A model generated the notes under the pieces. It searched no databases. It was not told where the DNA came from and saw nothing but the letters and a program-made list of their open reading frames with translations. A DNA stretch of 64,000 bases from Asterias amurensis (lineage: Eukaryota; Echinodermata; Asteroidea; Forcipulatida; Asteriidae): the NCBI RefSeq assembly GCF_032118995.1, contig NC_092650.1:16549501-16613500 (forward strand), written 5' to 3'. Made by a program: the position numbers and the translations under genes. Of the stretch, positions 1-43,500 are shown in pieces (position 1 is the first letter of the stretch; the number at the start of each line of letters is the position of its first letter).

Positions 1-125
1 TCTAGTTGAAACCAACGGTTCTTTTCAGAACCATCCAAACTCATTAGAGATAGTCATTATAACATGGTGTTACCGCAAACCTTTCTATATCGTATTTCCA
101 CCATGCAAAGTTCCTAATCATACTT
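1..125 (+). repeat. dispersed repeat with histone-type 3' stem-loop, copy 1
   Basis: Shares nearly all of its sequence with 20195-20318: a stem-loop followed by CATTAGAGATAG, then CATGGTGTTACCGCAAACC and TTTCCACCATGCAAAG. The stem-loop at 17-32, GGTTCTTTTCAGAACC, has a perfect 6-bp stem, a TTTC loop, CCAAC before it and ACC-like sequence after it. No histone coding sequence precedes it in the window. Confidence 0.7.
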
Positions 126-294
126 ATCACTAACCCTGTTCTGTAGACTTTGACTAAAATCCCAACCCCGTGAGAGCTCTTTAAATTTCAGTCACATCGC
201 CTAACGTCAGAAAAGTCCCCCAACCTAAGACCACGAACGCTACATTTTGACGGCGGATGTAGGGACCTCCAAGTTCAGGTAAACTGCTGTCATC

Positions 295-540
295 TCAGCC
301 CAAATTCGGGCAAAAAAAGCACCCGAGCACAAACAAAATGCTTGCTCAAATAGGGCTGGGTACTTTTATTGTGTGGACACAAAACACAATGTACACAAAC
401 TAACATCAAACTCACACACTTTGCAGATAATAGTGGTAGAAAGCTTCCCTTAAAATATTACTTGCTAAGGTGATGTAGATTTTGAGAAATGAGTAAAACA
501 AGAAGCACAAATAATTGTCGCCTCCAGGAGACGAATATTA
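295..540 (+). repeat. dispersed repeat also present at 10.8 and 13.9 kb
   Basis: AAACACAAT, GATAGTAGAAAGCTTCCCT-like sequence, AATATTACTTGCT and GTC-nnnn-CAGGAGACGAATATTA are shared with 10750-10925 and 13830-13990. Confidence 0.6.
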
Positions 541-630
541 TTTAGCATGTAAAACGTTTTTCTTTTTCTTTTTCGTGACAGTGCTTTACTCTTTTCTCAA
601 AAACTATATCACCTCAACAAGTAGTATTTT

Positions 631-1008
631 AAAGACACCGGACCAAAGACCAGTCTTCTCACTTTGTCTCAACAAATGCACAAAATAACAGACCTGTAAA
701 ATTTTGAGCTCAATTGGTCGTCGAAGTTGCGAGATAATAATGGAAGAAAAAACACCCTTTTCACACGAAGTTGTGTGCTTTCAAATGCTCAAAACCTCAA
801 AATCTAATTCTGAGGTCTCGAAATCAAATTCAAATTTTTTTGTGGAAAATTACTTCCTCTCGAACACTACGTTAATTCCTCTCGAACACTACGTTACTTC
901 AGAGGGATCCGTTTCTCACAATGTTTATACTGTCATCATCGCCAACAAGTAACTTTTTATGCTAACAAAATTGAATACAAACATCAATAGCATACAGTGT
1001 ATTTAAGG
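631..1008 (+). mobile_element. TTAA MITE family A, diverged
   Basis: AAAGACACCGG start, GAGCTCAATTGGTCGTCGAA and CACGAAGTTGTGTGCTTTCA interior. Right end worn. Confidence 0.7.
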
Positions 1009-2261
1009 TAAGATTTCTATCATCACCATCTCGAACCCCAAATCCTTCAAATCAGAATAAGGTTTACGAACCATGTCACATGTTCCATGTTCCATGATCT
1101 ATTTTTTTTCTGCTGGTAAGCTGCTCTATATAATTGGGTAATAGTGTAAATCTTCCTCTATTTTTTTAACTCGTCTTACAGGGTCACCATTAAACCTACC
1201 CGCAAACTCTGTATTTTAAACTCAATTCAGCTTGTAGCTGCAATGTTTGAATGTGTTTTAATAAACCAATAATACAAAAAAAAAAAAAAAATAAACAGTT
1301 AATCGTAGTTATGTTATCAAGTGGTTTAAGGAAGCACGTGGATAAATCGTTATTGTTTTTTCCTCAAAAGCTCATAGTTTGATTAATTTACACTCACATT
1401 ATGCAACGGCATGAACCATAAATGTATTTTCCAGTACTTGTTTCACTTCATATTTAAAATATTTCAGAAGACGATATTATTCGCGGGCAGCAACCACAAA
1501 ATCTGCATTTTTTTAGAAGTAAAATACCACCCTTTTGCTACAATCATGTTAATTGCTAACTTTACATAAGGAACAAACAAACAAAACTTGACTGTTCTGT
1601 AATTTGGCTGGTTTCTTTCTTTTTGAAAATCCTCTTCGAAACTGTAATTTCAGACATTGACTGAGTACCCTGGTAGACATGAGAATTGTGGAATGTTAAA
1701 GATGCTATGTCAGATTTTTTGCCGATTTGACCCAAACATTTTGATTTAAAATTCATTTAGGTATTCTGATGGGGGTCGAGAAAGTTACAAGCTTTCATTT
1801 GAGCCATTGCTCGAAAAAGTCCGCCAACTATTAGTAGCAGTGAAATAAAGTGCTCGAAATTAGTTTTTGTCGGGATCCCGACAATATATCATGTGACCAA
1901 TTCTTATGTGTTTTGTGAGAAACGTTTTAAATTTTTGTCATGGTTCCTGACCATTAAAAGTAAAAGTTAACCTTTTTTCGTTAGAGCGGGTGATACTCTT
2001 TGAAATACCATTCACTCAAAACAATCTATTTTTTAATGGTTGGGGCCAAAAATCTGACATAGCCTCTTTAATAAGCAACATGACTTTAACAAAGTAAGAG
2101 TACAGAACAACCTATAGAACACTCTGCCTATAGTGGTGTAGCAACTTAATCCCGCGTGTGCGATTTCATTTGCAATTTATTTTTAACTTGCTGTAGGTAG
2201 ACAATTTGTTTTACGTTTATAATAAATGTTAAATTCGAATGGGGATAAAGAATACTATTTT

Positions 2262-2470
2262 TGGTTCTGACCCTATACACCGATTCGTGTAAGCACAGTT
2301 TATCAGTACTTTCCCGAGCTCTTAAAAAAAAAAGTCACGGGCATAATTACCTGGGTGGGGTTCGAAACCACGACCCTTACAATTGGTTGTTTGTGTATAG
2401 CAAACCCTTCTTTAAGAATATGACAATACTGACTAAGACCCCTGTTGTTCGCTAGACCAATTCATGCTAA
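2262..2470 (-). mobile_element. tRNA-derived SINE, minus strand
   Basis: Minus strand carries an RNA polymerase III B box (GGTTTCGAACCCCACCCAGG), followed by the tail seen at 46.9 kb (CGGGAAAGTACTGA). Confidence 0.6.
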
Positions 2471-2664
2471 CACAAAAGCCATGGCACGCGACTCATTCTG
2501 AATGAGAAATTTCTCCATTCATTCTCCGACTGCTATAATAGTCGCCAAGCAAATACAATGCAGAGGAGACCCGCTTAGTGTTATATGCAAATATGTAAGA
2601 GTCTTAGTTCCTGCATCTTCTTCCATGTACAGGGGAGGTATGAGTGTTAGTTATTGTGCTGGAC

Positions 2665-2740
2665 TGCAGAGAGACAAGATGGCTGATACCAGAAGGGCCA
2701 ACGAGGGATTCGAACCTTCGCGCTTTCATTTTTTTTCTTG
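2665..2740 (-). mobile_element. tRNA-like SINE head fragment, minus strand
   Basis: Reverse complement contains AAGGTTCGAATCCCTCGTTG, a good B box with a CCCTC-type flank; no body recognised. Confidence 0.45.
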
Positions 2741-2744
2741 AATT

Positions 2745-4740
2745 TTAGCCACTCGCCGTACAATCTGTGTTCACTAAATTCGTTTTGCCAGCACCTTTTT
2801 ACCATAGAGAAGCTGTTCGAGCTTCTTTTTACATTTTTTGATGAGTGAGTGGCAATCATTTTGAGAGTCGTTCAACTGCATAACTTTAGCAATGAGGACC
2901 CAGTAGTTTCACTGTTGAGTCCCGAGGACCTTCGCAAGTTTCTCGCGACTAGAACACTATTTTCTCCACCAGTGACAGTTAGAACAAAGCCTAAAAAGGC
3001 CATAATCTTCGGCGTGGGGCTTGCGATAGGCTTGGATGTGCTCCGGTGAAATTACACCCGCGAATGCAGTTAAAACAAAATGAACAAAAAATGTTCACAA
3101 CACATTTTCTTGGCGAACACCAATGTTCGCATAATCTGGCTCGGTGGGGCTAGCCCGGCCCAAGCAGCTACAACCCGCCACACGCCCGGTCGATAGAGAC
3201 GGGCAGAGAGAACGCAATGCCGCGTGGTAAGTGTACGGCATTACCTCAAAATTATGAAATAAATTGTTTTCCAACTCAAGTGAGATATTCCTTTTGTAAT
3301 AAAATAGTGGAAAAAAGTGGCAGCACGACACGGAAGTTTTATAAAAAATCCGATTTTTCTACGGTTGGCACAAAGGGGCACTTCTTGCTATAACTAAGTT
3401 TGTAATTTTCGATTAAACGTGTCACAAACCAGCCTCAAATTAGCTCTCTTGTTATTTCATTTTGTAAAAATAAAATTTACATGGAGGTAAAAACAAAAAC
3501 ACTATGTTTGCCTGCTATGAACAATCGTAAAAACATGCATATCTTTCATCAAAGCTGATAAAACACAACATTTATTTTGGTAGACTTTATACTTAAAAGA
3601 AAACCTTCAAAATGAAAGGGCACCTGGGCCACCAATCAATCAGGAACGGAAATGGTGACGGTGGCACAAGCCCAACCCCCGTTAGATACGCAATTGGCTT
3701 ACAATTTTCTTTTTCCACCTTCAATACTATGATAAGGTTCTCAATCAATACATGTTCTTGAAATGTTTTTGTCACTGTATTTTTCCTTTTCACCCTTATT
3801 CTTCAGTTGATGATGAAGGAGTTTGCAGTGTGTGGTTTTTGTCTATGGATCTGGAAATACTTCAAATGTAAAGACGTAGAGGTTACAACAAAATGGTAAG
3901 AGGAAACCAAACATAAGTTTACCCCAATGTATTTTACAATTAATTACAGGAACTTGTTGATGTTGTTAATGTTGGTCACTGGTGAAACACTTGTCTTTGA
4001 GGGACCTTTCTTATACGGTGCATATTGGTCGTGTCCAATGATGCAGTCAAGTTGTTAGTTCCTGGCACACTCTTACAATTCTCTTACTGGTCGAACTTCA
4101 AGTCAACAGTTGTCATGTTTTAACAAAATATATTGTCATTGATTTCTTAATAAAAAACCCAAATAATTTATTGCAATGAAACAATATGAACTATGTTTTC
4201 CATATTTAGGAGCAGCATAACATTTGAAAAAAAACTTAAGTTCGTACAGTTGTCATTATAAGACTGATGTCATTGTTGATTTTTTGAAAATATTAACAAT
4301 AATTCAGATTTACTGAATTAAGTAAATATTTCTGATGATCAGCTTTACATACAATATTCTTTCTTGTAAAAAAACCTTATGTCCTATATATAAAATAGGT
4401 TGTTTCTTATGAAAATAGTTTTTTTATGATGCAGTTGTAAGCTCTTAAAAAAATCCCACGGGTCGAACTTCAAGTCAACAGTTGTCATGTTTAAGTTTAC
4501 ATATCATAAACTCATTATTTAAAAACTTATAAACCCATGTGCTTTTTCCCACTATAATAGATTGCTGTTGATTCCGGAAATATTAAGACAAATTTAGAAA
4601 AGCTAAATTTGTTTAATATTTCTTGTACCAACACAATATGATCAATGAAAAGTTTAACCACTTTAGCAAGAATGCCACAAGTATTTAAGAGCTTTATGCC
4701 CTGTAGTAAAACAAAATCTCAAAATAATGCTGATTTCAAG
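2745..4740. other. no gene seen
   Basis: AT-rich sequence with only short frames without conserved protein character; apart from the diverged repeat at 4086-4640 I see no structure I can support. Confidence 0.5.
4086..4640 (+). repeat. diverged direct repeat (about 370-bp offset)
   Basis: GGTCGAACTTCAAGTCAACA followed by GTTGTCATGTTT occurs at about 4089 and again at about 4461. The sequence after each (GTTGATT, AATATTAA, TTTAGTAAATATTTC-like) is similar but diverged. No genes seen. Confidence 0.5.
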
Positions 4741-5024
4741 CGCATCTAATCAGTAGCGCAGCACCTGACCAGGTTTAGCTGAAGACAAATACGCTGCGCG
4801 AAAAGAAAAAAAAAATGATGAAGAAAGAGAAAGAAGATCTGTATACGCCTCTGCCGATGTCACATTGAAGCATTGATGACGCGGACTAGCAAGAAATGGA
4901 CAGAGAATGATGCTGAGGTTTGTATTGGTAAGATATTATAGAAAGAGGCCTAGAGTAGACCCCCTAGAATTAAATGTGATCTTTTTCGCAGGTATTTTTC
5001 ATCATACGGGTCGGTAAAGTATGA

Positions 5025-5123
5025 GTTACTTAGTCTTGGTTCCGAGAAACACTTTCTTTTTGAGAACGAACAAAACAAAATGCTTTAAAAATTACTACTA
5101 TTCCGAACCAAGACTAAGTAACT
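5025..5123. repeat. inverted repeat (foldback, about 100 bp)
   Basis: AGTTACTTAGTCTTGGTTC near 5028 is matched by its exact reverse complement near 5104, with about 60 bases between the arms. Looks like a small MITE. Confidence 0.75.
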
Positions 5124-5362
5124 ATAACCCAATGCAAGCCCTAGAAGCAAGAGATGTTCCTTGAAGGAAGACAATGCAGAGAAGGTTAAGTATGAGGTAA
5201 ATATAAAAGTCTTGTATCATGGTATGAGTGAGGTTGGGTACTCTTGGGTAACCCGGCCTGACCATCATGTGCAGGGCCACTAACCCCCGTTTTCTCCGCA
5301 ACCTTTTATCATTTTACCAACAACCTTTCTTCGCAACCTTTAACTATTATATTTTCTATGCA

Positions 5363-6450: not shown

Positions 6451-7990
6451 TGGTAATGTATCAGTTATAGTTTCAGCATATACCAGCAAAATAAAACCCT
6501 GAAGACATGCAGAGTAAACTGTTTGAAACTACGAAAACACGTCTGCTCTTTTCACTCTCTCAAAAGAGCAAACACTCTCAAAAGAGATTACGTAGCCCTA
6601 CCCGCAAGTTTACTAAGTATTTATAGTTTATTGAAGAAAAAAATTAAAACCCTTAAACAAATTAATTTGATACAACAGAAGCAGGAGTAAAAGTCTAGAC
6701 TGAATTTTAGACTTAAAAAAAGAGAAGTTTCTCAGCCCAGTAAACATATTTAGCTCGTTGTTTGAGAATAAAGAGTTGAAAACAAACATCATGGTAGGTC
6801 CATTCATTTAAGTTGTTTGGACTACAAGTTATTTAAATTCAATTCTACAAAACAAATCTGTTTATGAAAGACAAATAACGGTGCTCAATCCCTCCGAAAA
6901 AGTTCCATATTTCATTCTTCAAATAATAAATAGCTTATTATAATTATGTTATCGTGATTTCTTGTTTTTTGTTTCAGAGCTCAGCAGTTGCTACTGCCAC
7001 GAAGGCCTTTGACCAATATTGCTCAATGTTTGGTAATGTATCACTTAAAGTTTTAGCAAGTAACAGCAAAATATAAAACCCAGAAGACTGTTCAAAATGA
7101 TATCTAAACCACATCGGCCCTTTTCAGAGCCAACACTCCCTCACAAGAGATTTACAAATTCTTGTACCCGCAAGTTTACTATCTATTTATAGTTTCTTTG
7201 TACGAAATAAAACCCTTTAAAGCAATGAGCCTTCAAGGACAAAGATTTGCAGAATTTTACTCAGCACAGAAAAATCTCCTGGTTGTTTGAGAGTAAAGCG
7301 AGTGGTAAAAATATTTTTATGAAAGACAAGTAGTGGTGCTCAATCCCTCCTGAAAAGTTCAATCTCATTCTTCAAATAATAAATAGCTCATTATAGTTAT
7401 GTTATTGTAATTATTGTTTTTCAGAGCTCAGCATTTGCTCAGCAGAGCTCAGCGGTTGCTACGGCCACAAGGGCCTTTGACCGAAATTGCTCAATGTTTG
7501 GTAATGTATCACTTTAAGTTTTAGCAAGTACCAGCAAAATAACCCTGAAGACTGTTCAAAAGGATGTCTAAACTACACCGGCTCTTTTCAGAGCAAACAC
7601 TCTCTTACAAAAGGTATACAAACTTGTACCCGCAAATTAGTATATATTTATAGTTTCTTTCTACAAAATAAAACCCTTTAAAGCAATGAGCCTTCAAGGG
7701 AAAAACAAAAATTGCAGAATTTTTCTCGGCACAGAAAAATCACCTGACTGTTTGAAAATAAAGAGAGTGGAAAACAAACATGGACGTTCCGTTCACTAAA
7801 TACAAATTTGGTAGTGGACAGAAGTCATTTAAAATCAAATCTACATAGAGAACTTTTTATGATTGACAATAATTTTAATAGTGGTGCTCAATCCCTCCTG
7901 AAAAGTTCAATCTCATTCTTCAGATAATAAATGCTATCGTAATTTCTTGTTTTTCAGAGCTCAGCAGTTTTTCAGAGCTCAGCAGACCGA
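6451..7990 (+). repeat. diverged tandem triplication (about 470-580 bp units) with stem-loops and exon-like tails
   Basis: Units begin near 6451, 7030 and 7499 with GGTAATGTATCA. Each then has CAGCAAAATA, a stem-loop (7116-7131 with one mismatch; 7580-7595 with five of six pairs; degenerate at about 6545), CCCGCAAGTTTACTA-like sequence and an A-rich stretch. Each ends at a TTTCAG followed by AGCTCAGC (6978, 7425, 7958). The tails GCTACTGCCACGAAGGCCTT and its relatives look like duplicated small exons followed by GTAATG. Confidence 0.6.
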
Positions 7991-9296
7991 AGTTGCTCTA
8001 CGCAGATTATGTGCAGTGTGCATCGGCGAGTGACATTGGCAAGAAAAATACACCACCAGGACGCTTGGTAAGTTGGCAGGATTGATATTTCCGCTTTCCA
8101 CAAAGCCAGCTGCATTTTATTATTTCTACTTCATGGCAAAATCATGCAGTTCTCAAACCCAGAGAAAGTGAAATGCAACAACAACAACAACAAACAAAGT
8201 GTGTAAAAGGAAAAGTCTTGCTACACGAAGTAAAAGGTATTCCAATGTGAATGCCTTTTCTTCTAACTTTGAGATTGCCTTGATCTCTTTGCCTTGTATG
8301 ATACGGCCCCAATTTAATTAAAAACCAACACATTACACTTGTTTTGGTTTGGTCTAGTCAAGTCATGACAATCATCATCTTTTTATTTCTACAGCTGAGG
8401 AGTTCCTCTTGCCAATTGCTGAAGAGTTCGTCCAGCCAAGACTGTAGTGTGCATGGTGAATGTTGTGGACGTGAACATCTACTGGGACACATGGTAAGTT
8501 CAAGATTGAATGACAACTTGAAAACCTGTCTTCACTGATGGCCTCGAGTCGGAGAAAAGCTTTAAACTACTTTTACATGAGTCACTTATAATTGCTCTTA
8601 CGCTCTTAAGCAAGCAATTGTGTCCACTTTGTAAGCATAAAACCAGTAAAACTTCTGAAGACAATTGGAGCATCTGAACGAAATGTCAATAAACCATCGG
8701 ATGGTTTCAGAACCACATAATAAACTCAAAGAGAGATGGGTTACAAACCATTTTAGATTGTATCTCCATCATGGACTCTTTCAAATAAACTTCAGAACCA
8801 TGTGAAAAAACTGTCACAACAAAAACGGTATTTTTTCGAATTAATTATCAAACTACTGAATCTCTAATAAGTGACACAAACACTGACTAAGTGGTACGAA
8901 ATAAGTATTACAATACCTATTTAAAGTGATACAAAACACTAACTATTGTTACGGGCTGTGTCATCATCATACTGGCTAAAACTAAACTGACAAAAAATCA
9001 TATTAGTTTGTTCACATGGTATTGATAAAAGATGTGATTTTTTACTTTCACCTGTAGGCTTCGAAGAGGACTACAGAGATGACCTGAAGATACTTGAGGC
9101 AGCCAACTCTTTGGGGCTGATAATGGTGGTGTTTTCATCGAGCTGACGACGGACTACTACAAGTCTACCGGAAGATCTTCGTCTATGTTACTTGGTTCGA
9201 TGAGAGGCTGTCATAACTTCAACTACTTGACATTCGGCTATAAGGGTCATCTGCAGACTTACTTTGTGGGCAGTTGTTTTAAATGTCCACTTAAGT
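7958..9296 (+). pseudogene. exon-like segments of a decayed gene or non-coding transcript
   Basis: Three splice-bounded segments occur in order: 7958 or 7976 to 8067 (CAG before, GTAAGT after), 8395-8493 (TACAG before, GTAAGT after) and 9058 onward (TGTAG before). The first two are open in one compatible frame (LLYADYVQCASASDIGKK; CSVHGECCGREHLLGHM), but the third then stops after nine codons. In another frame the third reads FEEDYRDDLKILEAANSLG and then needs a one-base shift near 9114 to continue as GGVFIELTTDYYKSTGRS, open until TAG at 9295-9297. This coding-like text broken by a shift suggests a pseudogene; I do not recognise the family. Confidence 0.3.
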
Positions 9297-12268: not shown

Positions 12269-12391
12269 TTAACTTTGGTTTGAAACACAATAATTGAGAA
12301 CCGAAATTCTTTATAATTTCATTCAAACATGAATTTGGTAACCTCGACACTTATTCAGTAATAAGAACTTTGTTGGAAACCACCCCTTTAA

Positions 12392-12751
12392 AGCCATTGG
12401 ACCCTTTCGGTACAGAAAATTTTTTAAAAAATCACAGATTTACAAATAATTTACAGGGTTTACAGAAGGTAATGGTGAAAGACTTCTCTTGAAATATTAG
12501 TCCATGAAATGCTTTTGAGAAAACGGTAAAACAATATAAATTCTCGTTAGCGAGAATTACGGATTTGTTATAAACACATGTCATGACACGGCGAAACGCG
12601 CGAAAACAGGAGTGGGTTCTCCTGTTATTTTCTCCCGACTCCGATGTCCGATTGAGCCTAAATTTCCACAGGATTGTTATTTTATATATAAGTTGTGAAA
12701 CACGAAGTGTGGGACTTGGACAATACTGTTTACCGAAAGTGTATAATGGCT
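12392..12751 (+). mobile_element. TTAA MITE family B
   Basis: Left end AGCCATTGGACCCTTTCGGT and right end GTGTATAATGGCT, TTAA on both sides. Interior carries CTCGTTAGCGAGAATT palindrome and CATGTCATGACACGG. Ends duplication unit 1. Confidence 0.9.
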
Positions 12752-13289
12752 TTAAATGTATTTATCTCGCAGACTTACTTGGGCATTTTTTTGGAGTGTC
12801 CACAATTTAAGTCTATTTCAAAAAAGAATATCCCCTGCATCCATCAAAATACAAAAGCATAGGCCTAAATAACACACAGTATGGGAAGACAAAACTTGCC
12901 AATGGATTTCAATGGATCAGGAGTATGGTAGTTAAAGATTTAGGAAGTGGATCCCAAAAGAAAATGAAAACCGTTTGTAAAAAAAATTGTAAAGTATAAG
13001 TAACTGATTATCTGTTATTTTCTGTACTTAGTATTCAGTGTTCTGCTGAAGAGACAAATTGAGGTTCAAAGGCTCAAGAAACAAGTTTTAATAATAATTT
13101 ACCACTCTTTCAATATGTTAATGTCTAAATTTAGCTATCCTTATAATTGTTAGGTACAGCTGTGGCTACGACAGTTGTTAAGGTGTTAAGGTGTTGCTAA
13201 GGAAGTTGCTTGAACTTCCACAGGCATGGTGCAGCGATCCATTCGTAACAGTAGTCGTAGTCGCAGCCACCAGTTTAGACAGGGCTTAA

Positions 13290-15466: not shown

Positions 15467-15847
15467 AGGAACACGTTGCCTTGGATCGGACGAGTTGGTC
15501 AAAACAAAAACGTTTGTAACCGTTTTTTATAAAATGCATATGGTTGGAAAGATGTTTTAAAAGTAGAATACAATGATCCACACAAGTTTGCCTCGAAATT
15601 GCGTGGTTTTCCTTCTACTGTGCGAACTAACATGGTCGGCCATTTATGGGAGTCAAAATTTTGACCCCCATAAATGGCCGACGTGTTAGTCGACGAGGTA
15701 AAAGGAAAACCACGCAATTTCGAGGCATGTTTGTGTGGATCATTGTATTCTACTTTTACAACATCTTTCTACCATATGCATTTTATAAAAAACGGTTACA
15801 AACGCTTTTCAAAGACCAACTCGACCGATCCAAGGCAACGTGTTCCT
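15467..15847 (+). mobile_element. TTAA MITE family C, intact, 381 bp
   Basis: Terminal inverted repeats AGGAACACGTTGCCTTGGAT and its reverse complement, flanked by TTAA at 15463-15466 and 15848-15851. The matching place in duplication unit 1 (12388-12391) has one TTAA and no element, so this is a filled/empty pair. Almost the whole element folds back on itself; it has no open frame for a transposase. Confidence 0.95.
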
Positions 15848-15851
15848 TTAA

Positions 15852-16219
15852 AGCCATTGGACCCTTTCGGTACAGAAAAAAAAATAAAAAAATCACAGAT
15901 TTACAAATAATTTACAGGGTTTACAGAAGGTAATGGTGAAAGACTTCTCTTGAAATATTAGTCCATGAAATGCTTTACTTTTTGAGAAAACGGTAAAACA
16001 ATATAAATTCTCGTTAACGAGAATTACGGATTTGTTATAAACACAATGTCATGACACGGCGAAACGCGCGAAAACAGGAGTGGGTTTTCCCGTTATTTTC
16101 TCCCGACTCCGATGTCCTATTGAGCCTAAATTTTCACAGGTTTGTTATTTTCTATATAAGTTGTGATACACGAAGTGTGGGACTTGGACAATACTGTTTA
16201 CAGAGAGTGTATAATGGCT
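15852..16219 (+). mobile_element. TTAA MITE family B
   Basis: Duplicate of 12392-12751, now separated from its original left flank by the family C insertion. TTAA at 16220-16223 closes duplication unit 2. Confidence 0.9.
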
Positions 16220-17024
16220 TTAAAATAGTTTTAGATAGCGAGGTATTTTTTCACCAACAAATTTGAATCTGAGAAAGGTTTGCAGACAGGACTGCGCATT
16301 ATTAAACCAATGGCAGTGCATAATACGTTTGCCCATCCCAGCGCCTAAGAAAGGAGGCGTCAGACTGCTCAAAGCTTTGTAGCGAGTCTTGTGTGGAAGC
16401 CTTGGCAGCGATCTGCCGATTGGTGGCGCCTTTGCGTTTGGCGAACACAACAAACTTACTGTACACAGTACACATGATGTCGTTGATATGATAGTACACA
16501 CATCATCCTTTACTGAATAAAAGGTAAGTTTAATTTTTGTTTTTAATTTATGAAATGAGGCTCAGTATATTCAGCTTCGCCAATACAGTGATCTGCACAG
16601 AGTCTAATAATAAAGTGTATACCGAATTTTAGTGAGATCTGCTTTCAAAAATGAAAAGAGAACTTAAGGTAGAGAGTGCGGACCAAGCAAATAGCATGAC
16701 AAGTGAAGTGGTAGCCCCATAAATCGGTCCAATCCACTCCGTACCCTTGGCCCCAGCACCACTGATATCAAAACCTTTCGCTTCCTTGAAAAACCATCTG
16801 CAACGTTCTGCATCATGAAACTTACCGAGCTAATGCGTCAGAAGTTGCAGATAGCACTACACTTGGAATTGTTCAAATAGGTATCACAGATTTTGAGTAA
16901 AAATCAAGTGAATTTTGCGTGTGAATTTTCTCAACTAACGCTCTTTTATTTACCGCTAATGCCGATATGCCGATATGCTGATTGTCCTCCGACCGTGTGC
17001 AGATTTTTTTCCCACGACAAACAC

Positions 17025-17883: not shown

Positions 17884-29331
<11,448 letters not shown>

Positions 29332-30264: not shown

Positions 30265-33200
30265 TAAAATTACAAGGGGTAAGCCTTGCATTTTGGTCGA
30301 AATTTGTTGGCCTCATATGGATAAAATCACCAGCAAAGCGAGGGGGTAAGCCTTTCATTTTGGTCAAAAAGTAAATGGCAAAAGCTTGATAAAATCACAA
30401 CGGGTAAGCCTTGCATTTTGGTCAAAATTGATGGCCTAAAATTGGATAAAATCACAAGGGGACCATTTTGGTCAAAATTGATGGGCTGAAATTGGATAAA
30501 ATCACAAGGGGTAAGCCTTGCATTTTGGTCAAAATTGATGGGCTAAAATTGGATAAAATCACAAGGGGTAAGCCTTGCATTTTGGTCAATAATTGATGGG
30601 TTAAAATTGGATAAAATCACAAGGGGTAAGCCTTGCCTTTTTGTCAAAACTAAGGGGCTACCTTTTGATAAAATCACAAGGGGTAAGCCTTGCATTTTGG
30701 TCAAAATTGAAGGGCTAAAAATGGGTAAAATCACAAGGGGTAAGCCTTGCATTTTGGTCAACAACTAATGGGCTAAAATTGGATAAAATCACAAGGGGTC
30801 AGCCTTGCATTTTGGTCAAAATTGATGGGCTAAAATTTGATAAAATCACAAGGGGTAAGCCTTGCATTTTGGTCAAAATTGAAGGGCTAAAATTGGGTAA
30901 AATCAAAAGGGGTAAGCCTTGCATTTTGGTCAACAACTAATGGGCTAAAATTGGATAAAATCACAAGGGGTCAGCCTTGCATTTTGGTCAAAATTGATGG
31001 GCTAAAATTGGGTAAAATCAAAAGGGGTAAGCCTTGCATTTTGGTTAAAACTGATGGGCTTAACTTGGATAAATTCACAAGGGGTAAGCCTTGCATTTTG
31101 GTCAAAATTGATGGGCTAAAATTGGATAAAATCACAAGGGGTAAGCCTTGCATTTTGGTCAAAATTGATGGGCTAAAATTGGATAAAATCACAAGGGGTA
31201 AGCCTTGCATTTTGGTCAATAATTAATGGGCTAAAATTGGGTAAATCACAAGGGGTAAGCCTGGCATTTTTGTCAAAATGGATGGGTTCAAATTTGATAA
31301 AATCACAAGGGGTAAGCCTTGCATTTCTGTCAAAATTGATGGGCTAAAATTGGGTAAAATCAAAAGGGGTAAGCCTTGCATTTTGGTTAAAACTGATGGG
31401 CTAAACTTGGATATATTCACAAGGGGTAAGCCTTGCATTTTGGTCAAAATTGATGGGCTAAAATTGGATAAAATCACAAGGGGTAAGCCTTGCATTTTGG
31501 TCAAAATTGATGGGCTAAAATTGGATAAAATCACAAGGGGTAAGCCTTGCATTTTGGTCAATAATTAACGGGCTAAAATTGGGTAAATCACAAGGGGTAA
31601 GGCTGGCATTTTTGTCAAAATGGATGGGTTCAAATTTGATAAAATCACAAGGGATTTTAGTCTAAATTGATGGGCTAAAATTGGATAAAATCACAAGGGG
31701 TAAGCCTTGCATTTTAGTCAACAATTAATGGGCTAAAATTGGAAAAAACACAAGGGGTAAGCCTTGCATTTTTGTCAAAATTGACGGGCTAAAATTGGAT
31801 AAATTCACAAGGGGTAAGCCTTGCATTTTGGTAAAAATTGATGGGTTAAAACTGGATAAAATCACAAGGGGTAAGCCTTGTATTTTTGTCAAAATTGATG
31901 GGTTAAAATTGGGTAAATCTCAAGGGGCAAGCCTTGCTTTTTGGTCAAAATTGATGGGTTAAAATTTGATAAAATCACTAGGGGTAAGCCTTGCATTTTT
32001 GTCAAAATTGATGGGCTAAAATTGGATAAAATCACAAGGGGTAAGCCTTGCATTTTTGTCAAAATTGATGGGCTAAAATTGGATAAAATCACAAGGGGTA
32101 AGCCTTGCATTTTTGTCAAAATTAATGGGCTAAAATTGGATAAAATCACAAGGGGTAAGCCTTGCATTTCTGTCAAAATTGATGGGCTAACATTGGGTAA
32201 AATCAAAAGGGGTAAGCCTTGCATTTTGGTTAAAACTGATGGGCTAAACTTGGATAAATTCACAAGGGGTAACCCTTGCATTTTGGTCAAAATTGATGGG
32301 CTAAAATTGGATAAAATCACAAGGGGTAAGCCTTGCATTTTGGTCAAAATTGATGGGCTAAAATTGGATAAAATCACAAGGGGTAAGCCTTGCATTTTGG
32401 TCAAAATTGATGGGCTAAAATTGGATAAAATCACAAGGGGTAAGCCTTGCATTTTGGTCAATAATTAACGGGCTAAAATTGGGTAAATCACAAGGGGTAA
32501 GGCTGGCATTTTTGTCAAAATGGATGGGTTCAAATTTGATAAAATCACAAGGGATTTTAGTCTAAATTGATGGGCTAAAATTGGATAAAATCACAAGGGG
32601 TAAGCCTTGCATTTTAGTCAACAATTAATGGGCTAAAATTGGAAAAAACACAAGGGGTAAGCCTTGCATTTTGGTCAAAATTGACGGGCTAAAATTGGAT
32701 AAATTCACAAGGGGTAAGCCTTGCATTTTGGTCAAAATTGATGGGCTAAAACTGGATAAAATCACAAGGGGTAAGCCTTGTATTTTTGTCAAAATTGATG
32801 GGTTAAAATTGGGTAAATCTCAAGGGGCAAGCCTTGCTTTTTGGTCAAAATTGATGGGTTAAAATTTGATAAAATCACTAGGGGTAAGCCTTGCATTTTT
32901 GTCAAAATTGATGGGCTAAAATTGGATAAAATCACAAGGGGTAAGCCTTGCATTTTTGTCAAAATTGATGAGCTAAAATTGGATAAAATCACAAGGGGTA
33001 AGCCTTGCATTTTTGTCAAAATTAATGGGCTAAAATTGGATAAAATCACAAGGGGTAAGCCTTGCATTTCTGTCAAAATTGATGGGCTAACATTGGGTAA
33101 AATCAAAAGGGGTAAGCCTTGCATTTTGGTTAAAACTGATGGGCTAAACTTGGATAAATTCACAAGGGGTAACCCTTGCATTTTGGTCAAAATTGATGGG

Positions 33201-34588
33201 CTAAAATTGGATAAAATCACAAGGGGTAAGCCTTGCATTTTGGTCAAAATTGATGGGCTAAAATTGGATAAAATCACAAGGGGTAAGCCTTGCATTTTGG
33301 TCAATAATTAATGGGCTAAAATTGGGTAAATCACAAGGGGTAAGCCTGGCATTTTTGTCAAAATGGATGGGTTCAAATTTGATAAAATCACAAGGGGTAA
33401 GCCTTGCATTTCTGTCAAAATTGATGGGCTAAAATTGGGTAAAATCACAAGGGATTTTAGTCTAAATTGATGGGCTAAAATTGGATAAAATCACAAGGGG
33501 TAAGCCTTGCATTTTAGTCAACAATTAATGGGCTAAAATTGGAAAAAACACAAGGGGTAAGCCTTGCATTTTGGTCAAAATTGACGGGCTAAAATTGGAT
33601 AAATTCACAAGGGGTAAGCCTTGCATTTTGGTCAAAATTGATGGGCTAAAACTGGATAAAATCACAAGGGGTAAGCCTTGCATTTTTGTCAAAATTGATG
33701 GGTTAAAATTGGGTAAATCTCAAGGGGCAAGCCTTGCTTTTTGGTCAAAATTGATGGGTTAAAATTTGATAAAATCACTAGGGGTAAGCCTTGCATTTTT
33801 GTCAAAATTGATGGGCTAAAATTGGATAAAATCACAAGGGGTAAGCCTTGCATTTTTGTCAAAATTGATGGGCTAAAATTGGATAAAATCACAAGGGGTA
33901 AGCCTTGCATTTTTGTCAAAATTAATGGGCTAAAATTGGATAAAATCACAAGGGGTAAGCCTTGCATTTGTGTCAAAATTGATGGGCTAAAATTGGATAA
34001 AATCACAAGGGGTAAGCCTTGCATTTTTGTCAAAATTAATGGGCTAAAATTGGATAAAATCACAAGGGGTAAGCCTTGCATTTTTGTCAAAATTGATGGG
34101 CTAAAATTGGATAAAATCACAAGGGGTAAGCCTTGCATTTTTGTCAAAATTGATGGGCTAAAATTGGATAAAATCACAAGGGGTAAGCCTTGCATTTTTG
34201 TCAAAATTGATGGGCTAAAATTGGATAAAATCACAAGGGGTAAGCCTTGCATTTTTGTCAAAATTAATGGGCTAAAATTGGATAAAATCACAAGGGGTAA
34301 GCCTTGCATTTTTGTCAAAATTGATGGGCTAAAATTGGATAAAATCACAAGGGGTAAGCCTTGCATTTTTGTCAAAATTAATGGGCTAAAATTGGATAAA
34401 ATCACAAGGGGTAAGCCTTGCATTTTTGTCAAAATTGATGGGCTAAAATTGGATAAAATCACAAGGGGTAAGCCTTGCATTTTTGTCAAAATTGATGGGC
34501 TAAAATTGGATAAAATCACAAGGGGTAAGCCTTGCATTTTTGTCAAAATTGATGGGCTAAAATTGGATAAAATCACAAGGGGCAAATA
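30265..34588. repeat. 57-bp minisatellite, about 75 copies, with 900-bp higher-order repeat
   Basis: Unit AAAATTGATGGGCTAAAATT, then GGATAAAATCACAAGGGGTA, then AGCCTTGCATTTTGGTC. The first kilobase is more diverged; 34.0-34.6 kb is nearly homogeneous. Blocks starting at 31561, 32461 and about 33360 repeat at about 900 bp with shared variants (for example GGATTTTAGTCTAAATTGAT). As 57 is 19 codons, both strands stay open for up to 321 codons (minus strand 33689-34654; plus strand 33741-34589), but this follows from the period. It fills the space between the convergent OSGEP and AGXT2 3' ends. Confidence 0.97.
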
Positions 34589-35474
34589 AGGCCTGCACCT
34601 GCTGGATAAGAAATAAAAGTATAAATGATTAGAGGTAAATGGTTCATCTGTCATGATTAGGCCTCAAGTATCAAATAAACAAATAAAAAGGATGAATAAA
34701 TTGTTCAGAAATGTGTTTTATTTATTGTTGAAATCAATTATGAATTGTATTTAGTAAAACAAACTAATAACCAGAATCTATGTGTGAGATGTAAACAAAA
34801 GATAGAGTGCATTTTACATGTTGAAATCAAAACCACTTTTTGACATCTGATCTGGCCTGACGAAAACGAAATCCCAGTGGCACAAACAAAAGCACTCTCC
34901 GGCTCAAAAGTGCTCCCATTGTTACAAATAATAAAAATATTAATTTGTTCAATGAAATTGACACCATTATAAAGTTTGATAATTATCAAAATTTGTGACC
35001 TTAAATATTTTCAACACTAATCAGTTTTATAGCATAATTTGCCTCAATAGAAATGCCTCAATAAGCAGACACAATTATTATTATTAGAAGAAAAAATAGT
35101 ACTTTAAAATGTAAAGCTTTCTCATCAGTCATAGAAAAATATAATTTTAATCTACCATATTTGCATTTATATATGAATGTATCATTAGTTTTGTTGTATG
35201 AATATAATGTTGGCGGGTAGTTTTTCAAGATAGTAAAAGCTACCAGGCTATAAGAATAGAAACAATAATACTGGAAAAAACATGTCAAATGCAAAGTGCA
35301 GTATTCAATTCAAATACTGCTAATGTTATAGAAAGGCACCATAATTTAATACAACTTAGTTATTTATATATATAACAATTGAAGGTAATCATTCTTAAAT
35401 TTAACGGCAATACAAGCCTATTTGGTTAAAAAGAAGTACCAGCAGGTTTCGATAGTATAAAGCATTTTGAGAAT

Positions 35475-35833: not shown

Positions 35834-36616
35834 TTCACTACAAAGTAGTGTGGCTACGAAAAAAATATAATTTTTTTTTATATCAGTTTTTATGACCCAA
35901 CATTTGAATGTGAAAAACGTTTCTGTCAGATTTGTTTCTAAGATTGTGTATTTAAGTTATGGATTAATCTTCCTGATGGGCGTAATTTACCACTACAGAC
36001 TTTTTGGAATTATGATCTCCCACATTCAAAACTTCACTCAAATTTAGCATGGGGTGTTTGTTTCATGTGTGTGCACAAGTCAACCAAATCAATATTCTAT
36101 AAAATTGTCTTGATGCAATTAATGCATCTATTAGAGTTTTTTTTTTCTCCACACAGGAAAGTATAATTATTATCCAATAATTGGACAAATGCATCACATA
36201 GTGATAATAAAAAAAAACTGATAATAACAATAATAACAATGATTAAAGAGTTGTAAAGCGCACATATCGGCCTATAATGGCACCCAAGGCGCACAAAGAA
36301 ACACAAGAAACACAAGAAACAGTAATTAAACAAAATAATGACAAGCATGTGTAATTTTGGTTCATACTAGCATAAAAAGACAAAAATATCAACAAATAAT
36401 TTGTGAATTGAATAACTTGCATCTTTGGATTCATGAATGAAGGAATAAACACTTGTTCATTGATTCTGATGTGTTACTTTGGCCACATCTTATTGACCAT
36501 GTAACCTTTGCTTTCAAAAAGAGCGACCTTGCACATTCCAGGTCATTTCCTGGCAGGCAAGATACCACATAGGTCATGAGAAATGTTACATTATGTGTAC
36601 TTATTTCCCCATGATT

Positions 36617-36705
36617 TGAGGCATTGCGTGGTGAGGTATCAATATATATTTGGTTTGTGGTAACACCATGTGTGTATCTACTTGCCACGTAGAGTTTGTC
36701 TTTTA
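36617..36705 (-). repeat. short dispersed repeat (also at 42.9 kb)
   Basis: ATTTGAGGCATTGCGTGGTG, TATATATTTGGTTTGTGGTA and ACACCATGTGTGTATCTACT recur at 42868-42955 with few changes. On the minus strand the TGGTGTTACC-CAAACC core also matches 70-115 and 20255-20300. Confidence 0.75.
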
Positions 36706-37278
36706 GAGAACTGTCTTTCTATATTCTACTATCGCGGAGTAGATTTAACAGATTGTTCAAGAAACCTCTCAGCTCTACAAAGTAATGTCCTGCTTTTTAA
36801 CTACCTGGGTGGTAGGTATAGAACATTTCTAACATATCTGATTTTTTTTCTTCGAATCCTCATATCATTATTATTAATATTAAAATTTAAACATTGGCTT
36901 GGTGATTCAATTATCAATGTTTATTTATAGGCTTTATTATAAAGATGCTGGTTAAGAAAAGAAATATTAAAGTCAATAATTATTTACACTTTTTATTAAA
37001 AGTTTTAATTATTTTTTTTAGTTTTGGTAAATTACTTTGGTAAATTTTAAAATCTAATAAAAATTATTTTGAATAAAATGAAGACAACTACTGGCTACAG
37101 AGTCATACAGAGTCTCACAGAACACTTTTAGTCACTGCAGATGTTTTCTTTCACGTATGGCTTCACCGGGAAATCATAGGTTGTCAAAAAGCCGATAAGT
37201 TTTACAGAGTTTTGCACTAAATACGTCTTTTAAACGAAAAGGCATTCATGAATGGAAAAAAAAGAGTAGTGTCTCATT

Positions 37279-37381
37279 CTTAAACTGCTGTTTAAAACTT
37301 TGCAGGGTCGTGGCCGTGCGATTAAGGCCCTCGCCTTCGGCTTGGGCCTACAAACCTGCCGGCTTTAAACGGCAGCTTAAG
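37279..37381. repeat. small inverted repeat in the AGXT2 3' flank
   Basis: CTTAAACTGCTGTTTAAAAC and inverse GCTTTAAACGGCAGCTTAAG are about 27-bp arms with mismatches, enclosing GGCCCTCGCCTTCGGCTTGG. Confidence 0.6.
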
Positions 37382-37525
37382 AACTTGTCGCTACCCCTTC
37401 ATTCCCTTAATTATAATCATTAAAACAAGTTTACATTGGAATCATATAAGGCGGTGATCAAATAAAACTGAGATAATTTGTACCTGGGGTCCCATTGAGG
37501 AAGACGGCCGACTGTTGAAGAATCT

Positions 37526-40500
37526 TTAGGTGTTCCTTTCTAAGTGGTTCTGCAGAGCTAACCTCAGGACGGACAGACCAAAGTCTGCGTCTTCTTTGCT
37601 GATAATCATGGCCGGTTTGATTCGGAACACCTGTGTGTCATGAGATAAAAATAACAAAGCATTGTTTAGAATTTTCAACTGTTAAGCCTGGTTCATACTT
37701 TCTGCGATTGAGATACAAATTTTGACGCAAACTATTTGTTGCAAATTTGTGACATCCAAATCTGACTGCAAGTATGAACTGGGCTATTAGTCTTAAAGTC
37801 ACTACTACTAAGGGAATAAATGAGTTTACAGGCAAAGAGGTCTTAAAGGGCCATTTCAAAATGACAGGGTTATGGTCATGCGATAACGGACCGAGCGAAT
37901 TTCACAACCCTACAATTTATAACCATTGTTATTTAAGTTTGAAAATCCTAAGACGATTTCTGTCAAGTTATTGCTCCAGTTTGTGAAGGGTCAAGATTGC
38001 ATTGTCGTTCAACAAGTAGGGTATGAGACGCAATCATTCTATGATGTCTATCTATCATGACATTCCTCAGTGGTCAATATGCAAGATATTGGTGTTGTGG
38101 AAGACCGTTTTGTATTTCCTTTTTTTAGAAATGCAAGCCCACTCAAGATGCTCCTTAAAGCTCGCGCAAACTTTATTTTGGCGCTCTATAAACAACTTTT
38201 TATATGATTGACTGATTGATCGATCTATCTATTGATTGACTGATAGATTGATTGATTGATTGATTGATTGATCAGTCAGATTGATGTCTGAAAACTTACG
38301 TTTCCATGGATACCTCCCTTGCCAATAAGGACGCCCATATCCTTAGCATCTTCCCATATTGGTCCCATTTGGTCTGGTGGAAGAGGTGTTCTCGATTCCT
38401 GCAAATCCAACATAAATTAAATGAGAGATGAGTTGGGAAGAGAATTTTTAGTTCAAGGGTAGGTATACAATTGGTAACCACTCTCCAAATTTATGGCAAA
38501 AACAACTTACTTGGTTATAAAGTACAGTGGATTTCAATAGTTAAGGGGTTTTCTGGAAAATGTTTGGCAGGCTTTGTCTCAGCTTTTGCAAAAAAAATAA
38601 AATAAAAAATAATTCCCTATGGTTGGCATGAACACACCCTATTACAGAATCCTACTCCTTAAAGGCAGTGGACACTATTGGTAATTACTCAAAATAATTA
38701 TTAGCATGAAACCTTACTTGGTAACCGGTAATGGGGAGCTGCTGATAGTATAAAACATTGTGAGAAACAGCTCCCTCTACAGTAACATAGTGTTTGAGAA
38801 AGAAGTAATTGTCCACGAATTTGATTTCAAGACCTCAGATTTAGAATTTGAGGTCTCGAAATCAAGCACTGAAAGCACACAACTTCGTGTGACATGGCTA
38901 TTTTTTCTCTTTCATTATTATCACGCAACTTCGACAACCGATTAAGCTCAAATTTCCACAGGTTTGTTATTTTATGCATATGTTGAGATACACCAACTGT
39001 GAGGATAGTGTCTACTGTCTTTAAAGGCAGTGGACCTATGTGATAATTACTCAAAATAATTATTAGCATAAAACCTTACTTGGTAACGAGTAATGGGGAG
39101 CTGCTGATAGTATAAAACATTGTGAGAAAGGGCTCCTTCTACAGTAACATAGCAGGCCTGATACTTCACGGAGGCGATTGCCTCCGTGCCCCTGGTCATT
39201 GCCTTGGTGCCCTTGAAATGCTACAGTACAAATTTACAATTTCCTCATAAGGTGCCCTTTACCAAGGAGAAAATGCCTTGGTGCCCTTGTCCTTTCAAAA
39301 ACGAAGCATACAGGCCTGACATAGTGTTCGAGAAAGAAGTAATTTCACACGAATTTGATTTCGAGACCTCAAGTTTAGAATTTGAGGTCTCGAAATCAAG
39401 CATCTGAAAGCACACAACTTCGTGTGACCAGGTTTTTTTTCTTCTCTAATTATTATCTGGCAACTTCCCTGACCAATTGAGTTCAAATTTTCACAGATTT
39501 GTTATTTTATGCATATGTTGAGATACACCAAGTGAGAAGACTGTCTTTGACAATTATCAAGTGAGTTTAACCCTTAAATTTTACAACACCATTAAATTTA
39601 TATGACCACCTGAAAAATTAAGCCCCCTTTTAAATTGACTTTTTGTGTTTACGGAATTTTTAGAGGTCTGTATCTACAACAATATATTAATATATTTTAA
39701 AACTCCTGTAACTCTCATGCATTCAGTTTTCTCAATAGGGAGTTTACGTTTTCGACGATGGATGGTTCTGCGATGGTTTTTCAGCCAAACGTTGTTGTCG
39801 TTTTCAGTACAACAAATATTCATCCCAAAAATGAGGGACGACCGTCCTTAAAGCCCACGCATGCGCAGATGACGCCAAATGTCATCATTACCGTCGCAGA
39901 ACCATCCGTAATCCTCCCTAATCATACCTTATCAGTCACCATCTCAACCCCGATCATGAGACCCTTGCCTCGGACATCTCCAACAATCTCAAACTCATCT
40001 CGCATCTTGGCTAGCTCCAGCAGCATGTAGGTGCCGACGTCTTGGCTGATTCCTTGGGTGTTCTCTTCTTCAATCACCTTCAGGGAAAATCCAGAATTGC
40101 AACAAGATGAGAGTTGCAGGCTTTGATTTCTAATTTGCTTATTTTCAGTGGTGTACATGTACTTAAAGACAGTGGACACTATTGGTAATTGTCAAAGACC
40201 AGTCATCTCACTCGCTGTATCTCAACATATGCAAAAATAACAAACCTGTGAAAATTTCAGCTCAATTGGTCGTCGAAGTTAGCGAGATAATAATGAAAGA
40301 AAAAAACAACCTTGTCACACGAAGTTGTGTGCTTTCTGATGCTTGACTTCGAGACCTCAAGTTCTAAATCTGGGGTCTCGAAATCAAATTAGTGGAAAAT
40401 TACGATACTTCAAAGGAAGCCGTTTCTCACAATGTTTTATACTATCAACCTCTCCCAATTACTCGTCACCAAGTAAGGTTTGATGCTAAAAACTGCCTTT

Positions 40501-43500
40501 AAACTTATTTTGTGTAATTTTCTTACGGTGTTTCTACTGTTATGCGCCCTCGAACAGGCTAATCCTGGAGTGAGCGCAATAAGAAAAGACTATTAATAGT
40601 GAACCTGCGGTTACAACCGAGTGTAATTTGGTTAAAGAAGGAGTGCTGGATCTGAAAAAGTAAGCTCTGTTCCTCTTCTTTTCTCCTGAAGACGAAGAGA
40701 GATACTGTTTGAACCGTCAAGACCACACCAGCTCTTTTCAGAGCTAACACTCCTCCGTAAGATATTTAACACATGATTGTACCTGCAAGCTAACCATTTT
40801 GTTTTGTTATTTCTTATACCTTGCATCTGGTTAGAAGATATTTAAAAATAGAAACATGGCTATAAGGAGAGGCAATTGCCTCCATAAAAAGTATGGCTTG
40901 CAAGATAAAAAAACAAAAGTCAAAATACAAAAAGGCACTGGGTAACCATACAGAGACTTTTCGTCTGAGTAGGGAGAAACTCTGGATAAGGCGCCTTCAG
41001 ATCATTCAACCCCATAGCGTGTCATGGCCGAGGGGTTAAGAGCACCGAATGCAAGCACTGGTGTTTGATCAGCAGAGTGTGGGTTCGGATCCCGGTCGTG
41101 ACACTTGCTACATAAAATTGGGGAGGTGGTGCTTTCTGCTCGAATTGATGATACCCAAGCCTACATTCGTATGGACTGTAAAAGGGGTAACCCTGTTTCA
41201 GCCCTAGGAGTAGGTGGCCTCTGGAAAATATAATTGTATCCCACACCTTGAAGTGGCCTTCAGGCCTTGTGTGTCGTCGGGCGACTTGCATAAAAAAGGA
41301 AGGAAAAAAAAAAAAAAAAAAAAAAAAACATTTTGGGTTACTCTCTCTGAAGTAACGTAATTTTTGAGGAAGAGGTAATTTCTCACTAAAATAATATGCA
41401 CACAAATTCGTCCAACGAGAGTGTTTTTTCTTTCATCATTTTCTCGCAACTTCGATGACCAATTGAGCCCAAATTTTCACAGGCTTGTTTAGTTATATGC
41501 TTATGATGGGATACACCAAGTGAGAAGACTGGTCTTTGACAATTACCAAACGTGTACAGTTCCTTTAAGCGACATGAGCACTTTTATGGATTTGTGCGCT
41601 TCATAAGTTTTCATTATTTTATTATTAACATTGAAGGAAAAAGGAAGGCTACCTCTAAGACTGCTTTTCCAACGGCTCCAGCAAGTGGGTTGCCTCCATA
41701 TGTGTTCAGATGCAGGGCCGATTTAAGCGTCTTGGCAATTTCTATGATGAAATAAGATAACAGACCAAAACTTCAAGTGAAAGTCAAGAATGGAAATGGA
41801 ACATATTCAACTTTACACTCTCTTTGTTTTTTTAAACCGACTGATGAGATTGTTTATATCATCCAGGTTGAGCGCTTTTGAGGCAGCAGACTGGCTCCAC
41901 AAGCAGGGCCCAATTTCATAGTGCTGCTTAGCGGCCGATTGTGTGCTTACTATGTATTTCCTTTATAGCGCTGCTAACTGTAAGCACACAAAAAGGCATA
42001 CTAACCTTCCTGTGCTTACCGCATAAAAATAAATGACGTCACAATGCAAATCCATGGTAAACGCACAATATGGCCGCCCAATTTTATTTTTTGCTAACCT
42101 GTAAAATACGCTTGCCTTCTGCTTGCACCTTTACAAATTTTTCTGCAACAGCAAGCATAAAAATAATTTGCTTACCGTTAAGCAGAGCCTTGATTAAAAC
42201 AGGATTACCAACCATATTTTCACATGAATTTCAGGGTAAGCGAACAACAGCTGAATACCAGTAACAAGCAATATGCAACAAATGAAAATTTGGATGGTAA
42301 TCCTGTTTTTATCAAGGCAGAAATTCCATGCTGAGCTAATCTTGTGTGCTTAGCAGCTCTATGAAATTGGGCCCTGGTCTAACCAAAAGCCCCTAACACT
42401 CACAACCAGCTGTGCGTGTGACAGCTCGTCACCATCAACACAAAAGCTCGGAATTAAAAATTGTGTTCTGCAAAAGAAACAATTTTTCATCTTCTAACCC
42501 GGTGCCTCTTATACAACACAATACATGTACAGAGGTGTAGCACATGTCCTTGAGTTAAAGAGGTTACGACTGTATAACTGTAACCAGAGGACATGTGCTA
42601 CACTTTTGTCCAACAAAGGTGACTGCAGTCACCTTTACTCACTTGGTGGAGTGGGAGTGGGGATGGATGGGGGGGGGGTGGGGGGGGGGGGTTGCTGAGA
42701 ACCACTGAGCGCCTGCCAGACTTTAAATTCTTACCTGGAGTGGTGACCACTGCAGCCAGTGGGAAGCCATTGCCGATGCCTTTTGCTAAAGTCACTGCGG
42801 GAAACAAAACGGAAGAAGCTTACCAAGACACTCCATTATCAAATTAAGTTTTTTGATATATATGATTTGAGGCATTCCATGGTGAGGTATCAATATATAT
42901 TTGGTTTGCGGTAACACCATTTGTGTATCTACTTGCCAGGTAGAGTTTGTTGATGCACTTATTTTCAAAACGGATAAGAGTCCTCATGAAGATACAGGAA
43001 CAAATAACAAGCTTCTGACCTCATTAAAATGTACTAAAATGTTGATCTTTAAAGGTAGGGTCAAAGATTAAAATTAAAAACCATTAAAACCTACATGATG
43101 AATAGCACCGCTAATGATGACAGTAAATTTAAAATATTTTTTTTAGGATTCCCCTAGAGGTAGTATGGTTTGGCAATTGTTTTACCCCAACAAATTTGAA
43201 TCTGAGAAACGATTCATGCATGATGTTGGAAGGATGGTTTCCCTTAACGAATGTCATAAATAATTTTCATTATGTAAAAAATCAAGAAAGAACCAATCTT
43301 TCAGGACTTCACATAATGTCAGAGCGTGTTAGTTTATGTTGTGAAACTACATGTACTAAATATTGGTAAAATATCGTACCTATGTCAGGTGTCACATCAT
43401 GTGCTTCAAATCCCCAGAAGTGTTCTCCTGTCCTACCGAAGCCCGTCTGCACCTCATCAGATATACACAGGCCCCCCTTTTCCCGGATCAATCCAAATGC

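Follow-up and report, generated by a model that had tools for sequence, protein, structure and literature searches.

A histone-like stem-loop in the terminal repeats of a Penelope-like retroelement family of Asterias amurensis

Penelope-like retroelements (PLEs) are marked by pseudo-long terminal repeats (pLTRs), inverted pLTRs and short target-site duplications (TSDs), as set out in passages of PMC3846280, and according to passages of PMC11167929 their reverse transcription starts internally, from two start sites which set a tail of 30-40 bp. Here, a stretch of 64,000 nt from the Asterias amurensis genome (491.5 Mb, 23 contigs), located at positions 16549501-16613500 of NC_092650.1 (contig C3) and called the window in the following, was analysed with respect to a dispersed repeat that bears hairpins of the type found at the 3' ends of histone messages. 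Its copies are terminal repeats (pLTR plus tail) of a PLE, and judging by their sequence the chances are about even that the PLE bears a 3'-end signal of the histone type, with SLBP as the probable binding partner and U7 as a possible processing factor.

The repeat was assigned to the Penelope-like elements because it shows the features by which these are known, namely pLTRs in direct and inverted orientation, short TSDs and a tail with two ends. A single copy of a coding region was found at C1:7348020-7350200 (L069), where one open stretch of 319 aa holds an RVT_1 domain (E 7.3e-4) followed by a GIY-YIG domain (E 5.9e-4); a PDB search with this stretch gave no match. The 5' part of the repeat begins about 185 nt past the stop of this reverse transcriptase (RT)/GIY-YIG frame, the hairpin follows about 120 nt beyond that, and the frame is flanked by an inverted hairpin copy at C1:7347762 (-) and a direct one at C1:7349716 (+). 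Head-to-head pairs of the terminal repeat occur at L021, L022 and L028, and some copies, L069 among them, have a longer 5' side in common. When 52 copies with an exact hairpin (from loci L001-L068; 51 picked for the hairpin, and L042 from arbitrarily placed loci) were aligned to a 159-nt reference read from the copies, 23 began at reference position 0, and the 3' ends fell at 121-131 in 20/52 and at 156-159 in 19/52. These two preferred ends, about 34 nt apart, agree with the tail length reported for PLEs. TSDs of at least 9 nt flank 10/52 of these copies, compared with a mean of 0.4 and a maximum of 3/52 when the flanks were re-paired; since the loci L001 and L006, and likewise L019 and L020, appear to have arisen by duplication, the TSD-bearing copies stand for about eight events.

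An initial annotation of the window had described its hairpins as parts of dispersed repeats whose likeness to histone 3' ends extends beyond the stem-loop; both points hold, and it was the repeat family that had gone unrecognised. There are thousands of copies in the genome: the 16-mer GGTTCTTTTCAGAACC occurs 3,199 times (reversed control 0), AGTTCTTTTCAGAACT 2,365 times (control 2), and ATGGTGTTACCGCAAACC, a downstream block outside the hairpin, 4,433 times (control 0). Among 20 arbitrarily placed 10-kb loci, eight held 13 family matches, which together with the nine of the window gives 22 matches in 264 kb. Scans of viral contigs and genome contigs with the family patterns gave no match.

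The hairpins of the window are real and beyond chance. Two places, 12-57 (36.6 bits) and 20208-20253 (34.9 bits), attain the gathering score of the Rfam model Histone3 (RF00032), and sub-gathering matches of 20.6-22.3 bits lie at 7575, 40725 and 7111. GGYYCTTTTCAGRRCC, with up to two mismatches, matches five times where 0.38 matches are expected, a number attained in 0/100 shuffles. Hairpins with a perfect 6-bp stem and a TTTC loop number four (shuffles: mean 0.39, maximum 2), one of which, at 55446 (-), is AT-rich and unrelated to the repeat; stems with at least 5/6 pairs are not in excess in the window (9 seen; shuffles: mean 6.6, maximum 16). The three perfect hairpins of copies A, B and C (Table 1) were recovered in sequence and place as the initial annotation gave them. 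The weaker ones of copies D, E and F were likewise correctly placed, those of D and E with one broken pair each, and that of F (GGATGG..AGAACC) pairing at 3/6 positions. Overlooked had been a copy with a loop insertion near 6545, the minus-strand copies at 42998-42857 and 36736-36611, and a weak copy at 40658-40595.

The hairpins might in principle be fragments of decayed histone genes, and tblastn does align H3 residues 85-124 directly upstream of 7116 (E 4.0 and 6.1). However, the repeat can be recognised as part of a retroelement by its ends, by its TSDs and by the RT/GIY-YIG frame linked to it; it is thus the terminus of a PLE and not, as had been allowed for, debris of a degraded histone cluster, so that, going by the sequence, this origin is very improbable. 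A decayed H3 upstream of the hairpins of D and E was rejected, the tblastn E-values being at chance level and searches with four frames against Pfam and with one against PDB returning nothing. It was also found, as first supposed, that no histone gene is nearby: tblastn with five histone protein sequences gave no match in the window below E 0.2.

With respect to the host's own histone messages, a first look with RF00032 gave 111,810 candidates in the genome, of which the best 75 were scored, and 14 of these 75 places were fetched. Five of the 14 are H2A or H2B genes (86-91% identity to the histone protein queries), the ends of which read AAACCAACC-GGCTCTTTTCAGAGCC-ACCA....TTCAAAAAAGAGA, the letters shown being invariant in 5/5. 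Older copies of the repeat have the same 16 stem-loop letters as the host and similar flanks, and about 10 nt past the stem they read CAAAAGAGAT, which resembles the TCAAAAAAGAGA of the host genes at nearly equal spacing; the stretch resembling the histone downstream element (HDE) is CAAAAGAGAU. In young copies the stem is GGTTCT/AGAACC. Judged against the host H2A/H2B genes, the matching 5' and 3' flanks are therefore borne out, and a downstream purine element of U7 type, which the initial annotation had proposed looking for, is found at about the right spacing. The 6-bp stem, the TTTC-type loop, the A/C-rich 5' flank and the ACC 3' flank are all present, as seen both from the RF00032 gathering matches and from a model of the host genes.

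This covariance model was built from the five host H2A/H2B ends only and searched, up to E 1, against the window plus 200 kb of arbitrary loci (264 kb). It reports 13 places, led by L048 with 49.3 bits (E 1.1e-7) and L039 with 42.1 bits (E 3.8e-6), and followed by copies D (36.6 bits, E 6e-5), E (36.3 bits, E 6.9e-5), B (32.1 bits) and C (32.1 bits). Weaker matches are those at L048 (31.7 bits), copy A (28.0), L042 (25.0) and again L048 (24.3); the last three, copy G being one of them, have E-values of 0.24-0.93, and copy F was not detected up to E 1. In histone messages a purine-rich HDE is expected 8-20 nt past the stem; here, a purine element 6-18 nt past the stem is seen in 46/73 distinct hairpins as compared to 1.3% at random places, a count in which the copies are related by descent and which used a pattern settled on once they had been inspected. 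Since stem, loop, both flanks and the downstream element all match the host, a chance likeness is improbable.

Of the remaining nine fetched places, at least two (L118 and L121) have a TCTC loop and a similar HDE, L118 reading GGCTCTTCTCAGAGCC and then CAAAAAGAGAT; a gene was assigned at none of the nine, that of the C9 array included. This array (C9:17750544-17918224, from which the hairpin L113 was fetched) is a tandem series of Histone3 matches with 5.4-kb spacing and probably the main histone cluster. Within the best 75 of the 111,810 candidates, clusters of Histone3 matches also lie on C12 and C6, and L118, L119 and L123 (on C3, C4 and C17) as well as places on C7 and C15 have an equal Histone3 score of 42.1 bits, being either scattered histone genes or another repeat.

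Because its end so closely resembles the message-ending signal of the host's histone genes, the element may make use of the host machinery that handles histone RNA. In the simplest case, which is the use known from histone messages, SLBP would bind the stem-loop and U7 would perhaps cleave, giving an element mRNA that ends with the stem-loop of the downstream terminal repeat; as the element has a terminal repeat on either side, a 3' end without polyadenylation would come from the downstream one, and read-through RNAs would act as templates. Such an arrangement may be likened to a retroviral long terminal repeat with its own poly(A) signal. Binding by SLBP and U7, cleavage and any benefit to the element are what we infer from this likeness. 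That the family uses the pathway of SLBP and the U7 small nuclear ribonucleoprotein to end, export or translate its poly(A)-less RNA, coupling its expression to S phase, is a tentative proposal to which we give somewhat less than even credence.

Alternatively, an ancestral element may have acquired the 3' end of a histone gene which has since been spreading without use. As if the likeness were fading, the host-derived model scores older copies at 32.1-49.3 bits and young ones at 25.0-32.1 bits, and the test for selection reported below is modest in its outcome. Such a passive relic would, however, not be expected to keep its stem by paired changes, or to change less in stem and loop than in its flanks, and we regard this origin as quite unlikely. 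The compensatory changes, whose lack the initial annotation would have taken as a sign against the hairpin, are present. In the seven copies A to G aligned on the plus strand, changes on both sides occur at pairs 1 (GC, AU, UA) and 3 (CG, UA); 88% of the cells are paired, and the covariation score was matched by 1/500 shuffles, the two-sided pair count by 138/500 and the pair-type count by 306/500. A set of 14 copies (A to F of the window plus eight from arbitrary loci; excluded were G, copies with a CTA loop and one identical L033 copy) likewise has 88% paired cells (matched by 10/500 shuffles), seven two-sided cells (1/500) and a covariation score matched by 6/500, its two-sided pairs being matched by 124/500. 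The stem has also been kept through paired changes in the younger copies, and the structure is therefore argued to be kept.

A sample blind to the hairpin was drawn from the 4,433 occurrences of the block outside the hairpin by taking the first 46 of 100 listed; 15 span the hairpin (9 with an exact one), and 14 of these entered the rates. Stem plus loop had changed at 7/224 sites as compared to 49/574 in the flanks (p = 0.005, Fisher's exact test); the two most variable flank sites hold 10/49 of these changes, and without them the flanks have 39/546 (p = 0.04). The other 31 of the 46 include a second subfamily, in which the homologous hairpin has the loop CTA or CTAA. By eye, many of its copies have AGTTCT-TTTC-AGAACT about 100 nt upstream, and at L084 its terminal repeat is arranged in tandem units of about 140 bp.

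Directly 5' of the hairpin lies a hammerhead-like core, CUC-C(A/U)GAAGA-stem II-GAAAC-GUC|GAG. Over the 33 hairpin-bearing copies that cover it, G8 is kept in all 33, C3, G5 and A13 in 32 each, A9 and A14 in 31 each, G12 in 25 and U4 in 5, the hammerhead U4 being replaced by A in 28/33. The Rfam hammerhead models gave no match up to E 0.5 in eight loci and up to E 10 in eight. The predicted cut GUC|GAG is the exact start of 4/18 truncated copies (starts between 5 and 51; binomial p = 5e-4), two of the four being the halves of one head-to-head pair at L022; copy B, too, opens at the predicted cut site, with the letters GAGTTG. Such starts are an indirect sign of cleavage at GUH. Of note, at L048:3765-3879, in an older copy, an open frame runs from an AUG within the CUGAUGA of the hammerhead core through the stem-loop, which may be compared with the Anolis PLE, whose open reading frame (ORF) begins at stem II according to passages of PMC11167929.

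The hairpin has the predicted hammerhead cut on one side and the two clusters of 3' ends on the other, a position that fits the main rival explanation, namely that the hairpin is a recognition site for the PLE's own protein near the internal starts of reverse transcription and that its histone likeness is convergent. For PAc of Anolis, the start of reverse transcription has been placed in an AC-rich stem loop at nt 111-118 of the ORF, and the ORF's first 172 nt are required (passages of PMC11167929), and in our family the second subfamily, by eye, retains the stem and not the TTTC loop. However, the 3' end clusters do not coincide with the hairpin and lie about 55 and 90 nt beyond its end, and a recognition site would leave unexplained why loop, flanks and downstream purine element match the host's histone genes; we hold it to be less likely than not, if a serious competitor.

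Several observations weigh against a histone-type signal in use by a PLE. Most insertions run on for about 50-85 nt beyond the predicted histone-type cut and thus came from templates left uncut at this site, and only 2/52 alignments end at 68-78 (L007 and L011), L007 plainly continuing past the stem with CAAAAGAGAT and L011 being a copy that may or may not end here. Insertion ends do not, however, reveal the end of the mRNA, since reverse transcription of PLEs starts internally. Furthermore, the HDE is reduced to the shorter TTAGAGAT in young copies, the second subfamily has CTA or CTAA instead of TTTC, the pair-type count of the 14-copy set is not above that of shuffles (494/500), and selection on the hairpin is only modestly indicated by the p-values given above. 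Finally, both domain scores at L069 lie under the Pfam cut-offs, though the order of RVT_1 and GIY-YIG is right.

If the element does end its messages in the histone manner, it could be a second user of the histone 3'-end signal, and would be a jumping one tied to S phase. To our knowledge, the way in which PLE RNAs end is poorly known, and a signal present in thousands of retroelement copies could explain it. For the annotation of a genome of this kind, a match to RF00032 need not mean a histone gene, because copies of the element reach the gathering score.

The copies in the window and its other features are collected in Table 1. Local profile searches brought in the minus-strand copies H and I and the weak copy J, and they join the two subfamilies, as a profile of C, D, E and G detects B at E 4.7e-4. 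Copies H and I are identical at 84/89 nt, starting right after the hairpin position, where neither has a TTTC hairpin. Homology extending upstream of CTGAAGAC was considered and rejected: a model of D, E and G misses F, and one of D, E, G and F finds C only at E 0.034. Copy B sits in an intron of the OSGEP/KAE1 gene and adjoins, with its 3' end, a miniature inverted-repeat transposable element (MITE). This intron starts GTATCCTT, which resembles the U12-type donor consensus. Both this gene, traced exon by exon, and the forkhead ORF of the window are indicative of an animal genome. A foldback or MITE origin of the repeat was rejected, the MITE beside copy B being a separate element with TTAA flanks, as was a small nucleolar RNA (snoRNA) host gene, there being no Rfam snoRNA match at gathering score within the window.

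Table 1. Copies of the terminal repeat and other features of the window (window positions)
Feature	Position	Strand	Description
Copy A	4..126	+	pLTR plus tail, young subfamily, cut by window start; hairpin 17-32; HDE-like TAGAGAT 45-51
Copy G	6498..6623	+	older subfamily; within tandem-duplicated unit; loop insertion interrupts stem
Copy D	7077..7205	+	older subfamily; hairpin 7116-7131 (one mismatch); HDE-like ACAAGAGAT 7143-7151
Copy E	7531..7665	+	older subfamily; tandem duplicate of D; hairpin 7580-7595 (one mismatch)
Copy F	8653..8786	+	hairpin 8699-8714 decayed; purine patch kept
Copy B	20199..20317	+	young subfamily; hairpin 20213-20228; TAGAGAT 20241-20247
Copy I	36611..36736	-	second subfamily; hairpin position reads GTTCTCTAAAAGAC
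Copy J	40595..40658	-	weak, degraded; head-to-head with C; E 1.9e-5 (C/D/E/G model), 0.21 (all-copy model)
Copy C	40684..40814	+	older subfamily; hairpin 40730-40745, first pair compensated (A-U)
Copy H	42857..42998	-	second subfamily; no TTTC hairpin at homologous place
OSGEP/KAE1	17884..29328	+	gene exons
MITE	20318..20692		about 375 bp, TTAAAGCCATTGGACACTTTCGG-like ends, TTAA flanks; inserted exactly at 3' end of copy B
MITE, other copies	12385..12752, 15845..16220, 23036..23409, 28104..28412, 51557..51718		
Minisatellite	30313..34600		57-bp unit, about 70 copies; both strands open, 19-residue repeats
tRNA-like repeat	41019..41200, 46439..46633		possibly a short interspersed nuclear element; downstream of copy C
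Forkhead ORF	59104..60165	-	forkhead domain (Pfam E 2.1e-18)

With regard to the literature, no title or abstract opening among the matches listed linked a PLE, or any transposon, to a histone stem-loop; the word "histone" has 0 occurrences in the main text of PMC11167929, and the passages of PMC3846280 covered here are without mention of a histone-type signal.

In comparison with known systems, the repeat shares with the host H2A/H2B ends and with RF00032 the stem-loop (16/16 nt in the older copies at L048 and L039), similar AACCAACC/ACAC flanks and CAAAAGAGAT. It differs from the ends of histone genes in that it lies in a retroelement terminus without an upstream histone gene and in that its conservation extends about 90 nt beyond the stem. 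With the minimal type I PLE hammerheads described in passages of PMC6155905 it has in common the order CUGANGA..GAAAC..GUH, stem II, the CUC/GAG stem I and some copies that start at the predicted cut, whereas it differs from them in that U4 is mostly A, in an unpaired position beside stem II and in the lack of an Rfam match. Finally, when set beside PLEs of the Penelope/Poseidon type as portrayed in parts of the sources (PAc of Anolis, PMC11167929; the Pen families of Adineta vaga, PMC3846280), the family shares RT and GIY-YIG domains, short terminal repeats, inverted head-to-head repeats, short TSDs, a pair of 3' ends separated by 30-40 nt and, as in PAc, a hammerhead-like core. What sets it apart from those PLEs is a terminal repeat with a histone-type stem-loop plus an HDE-like element.

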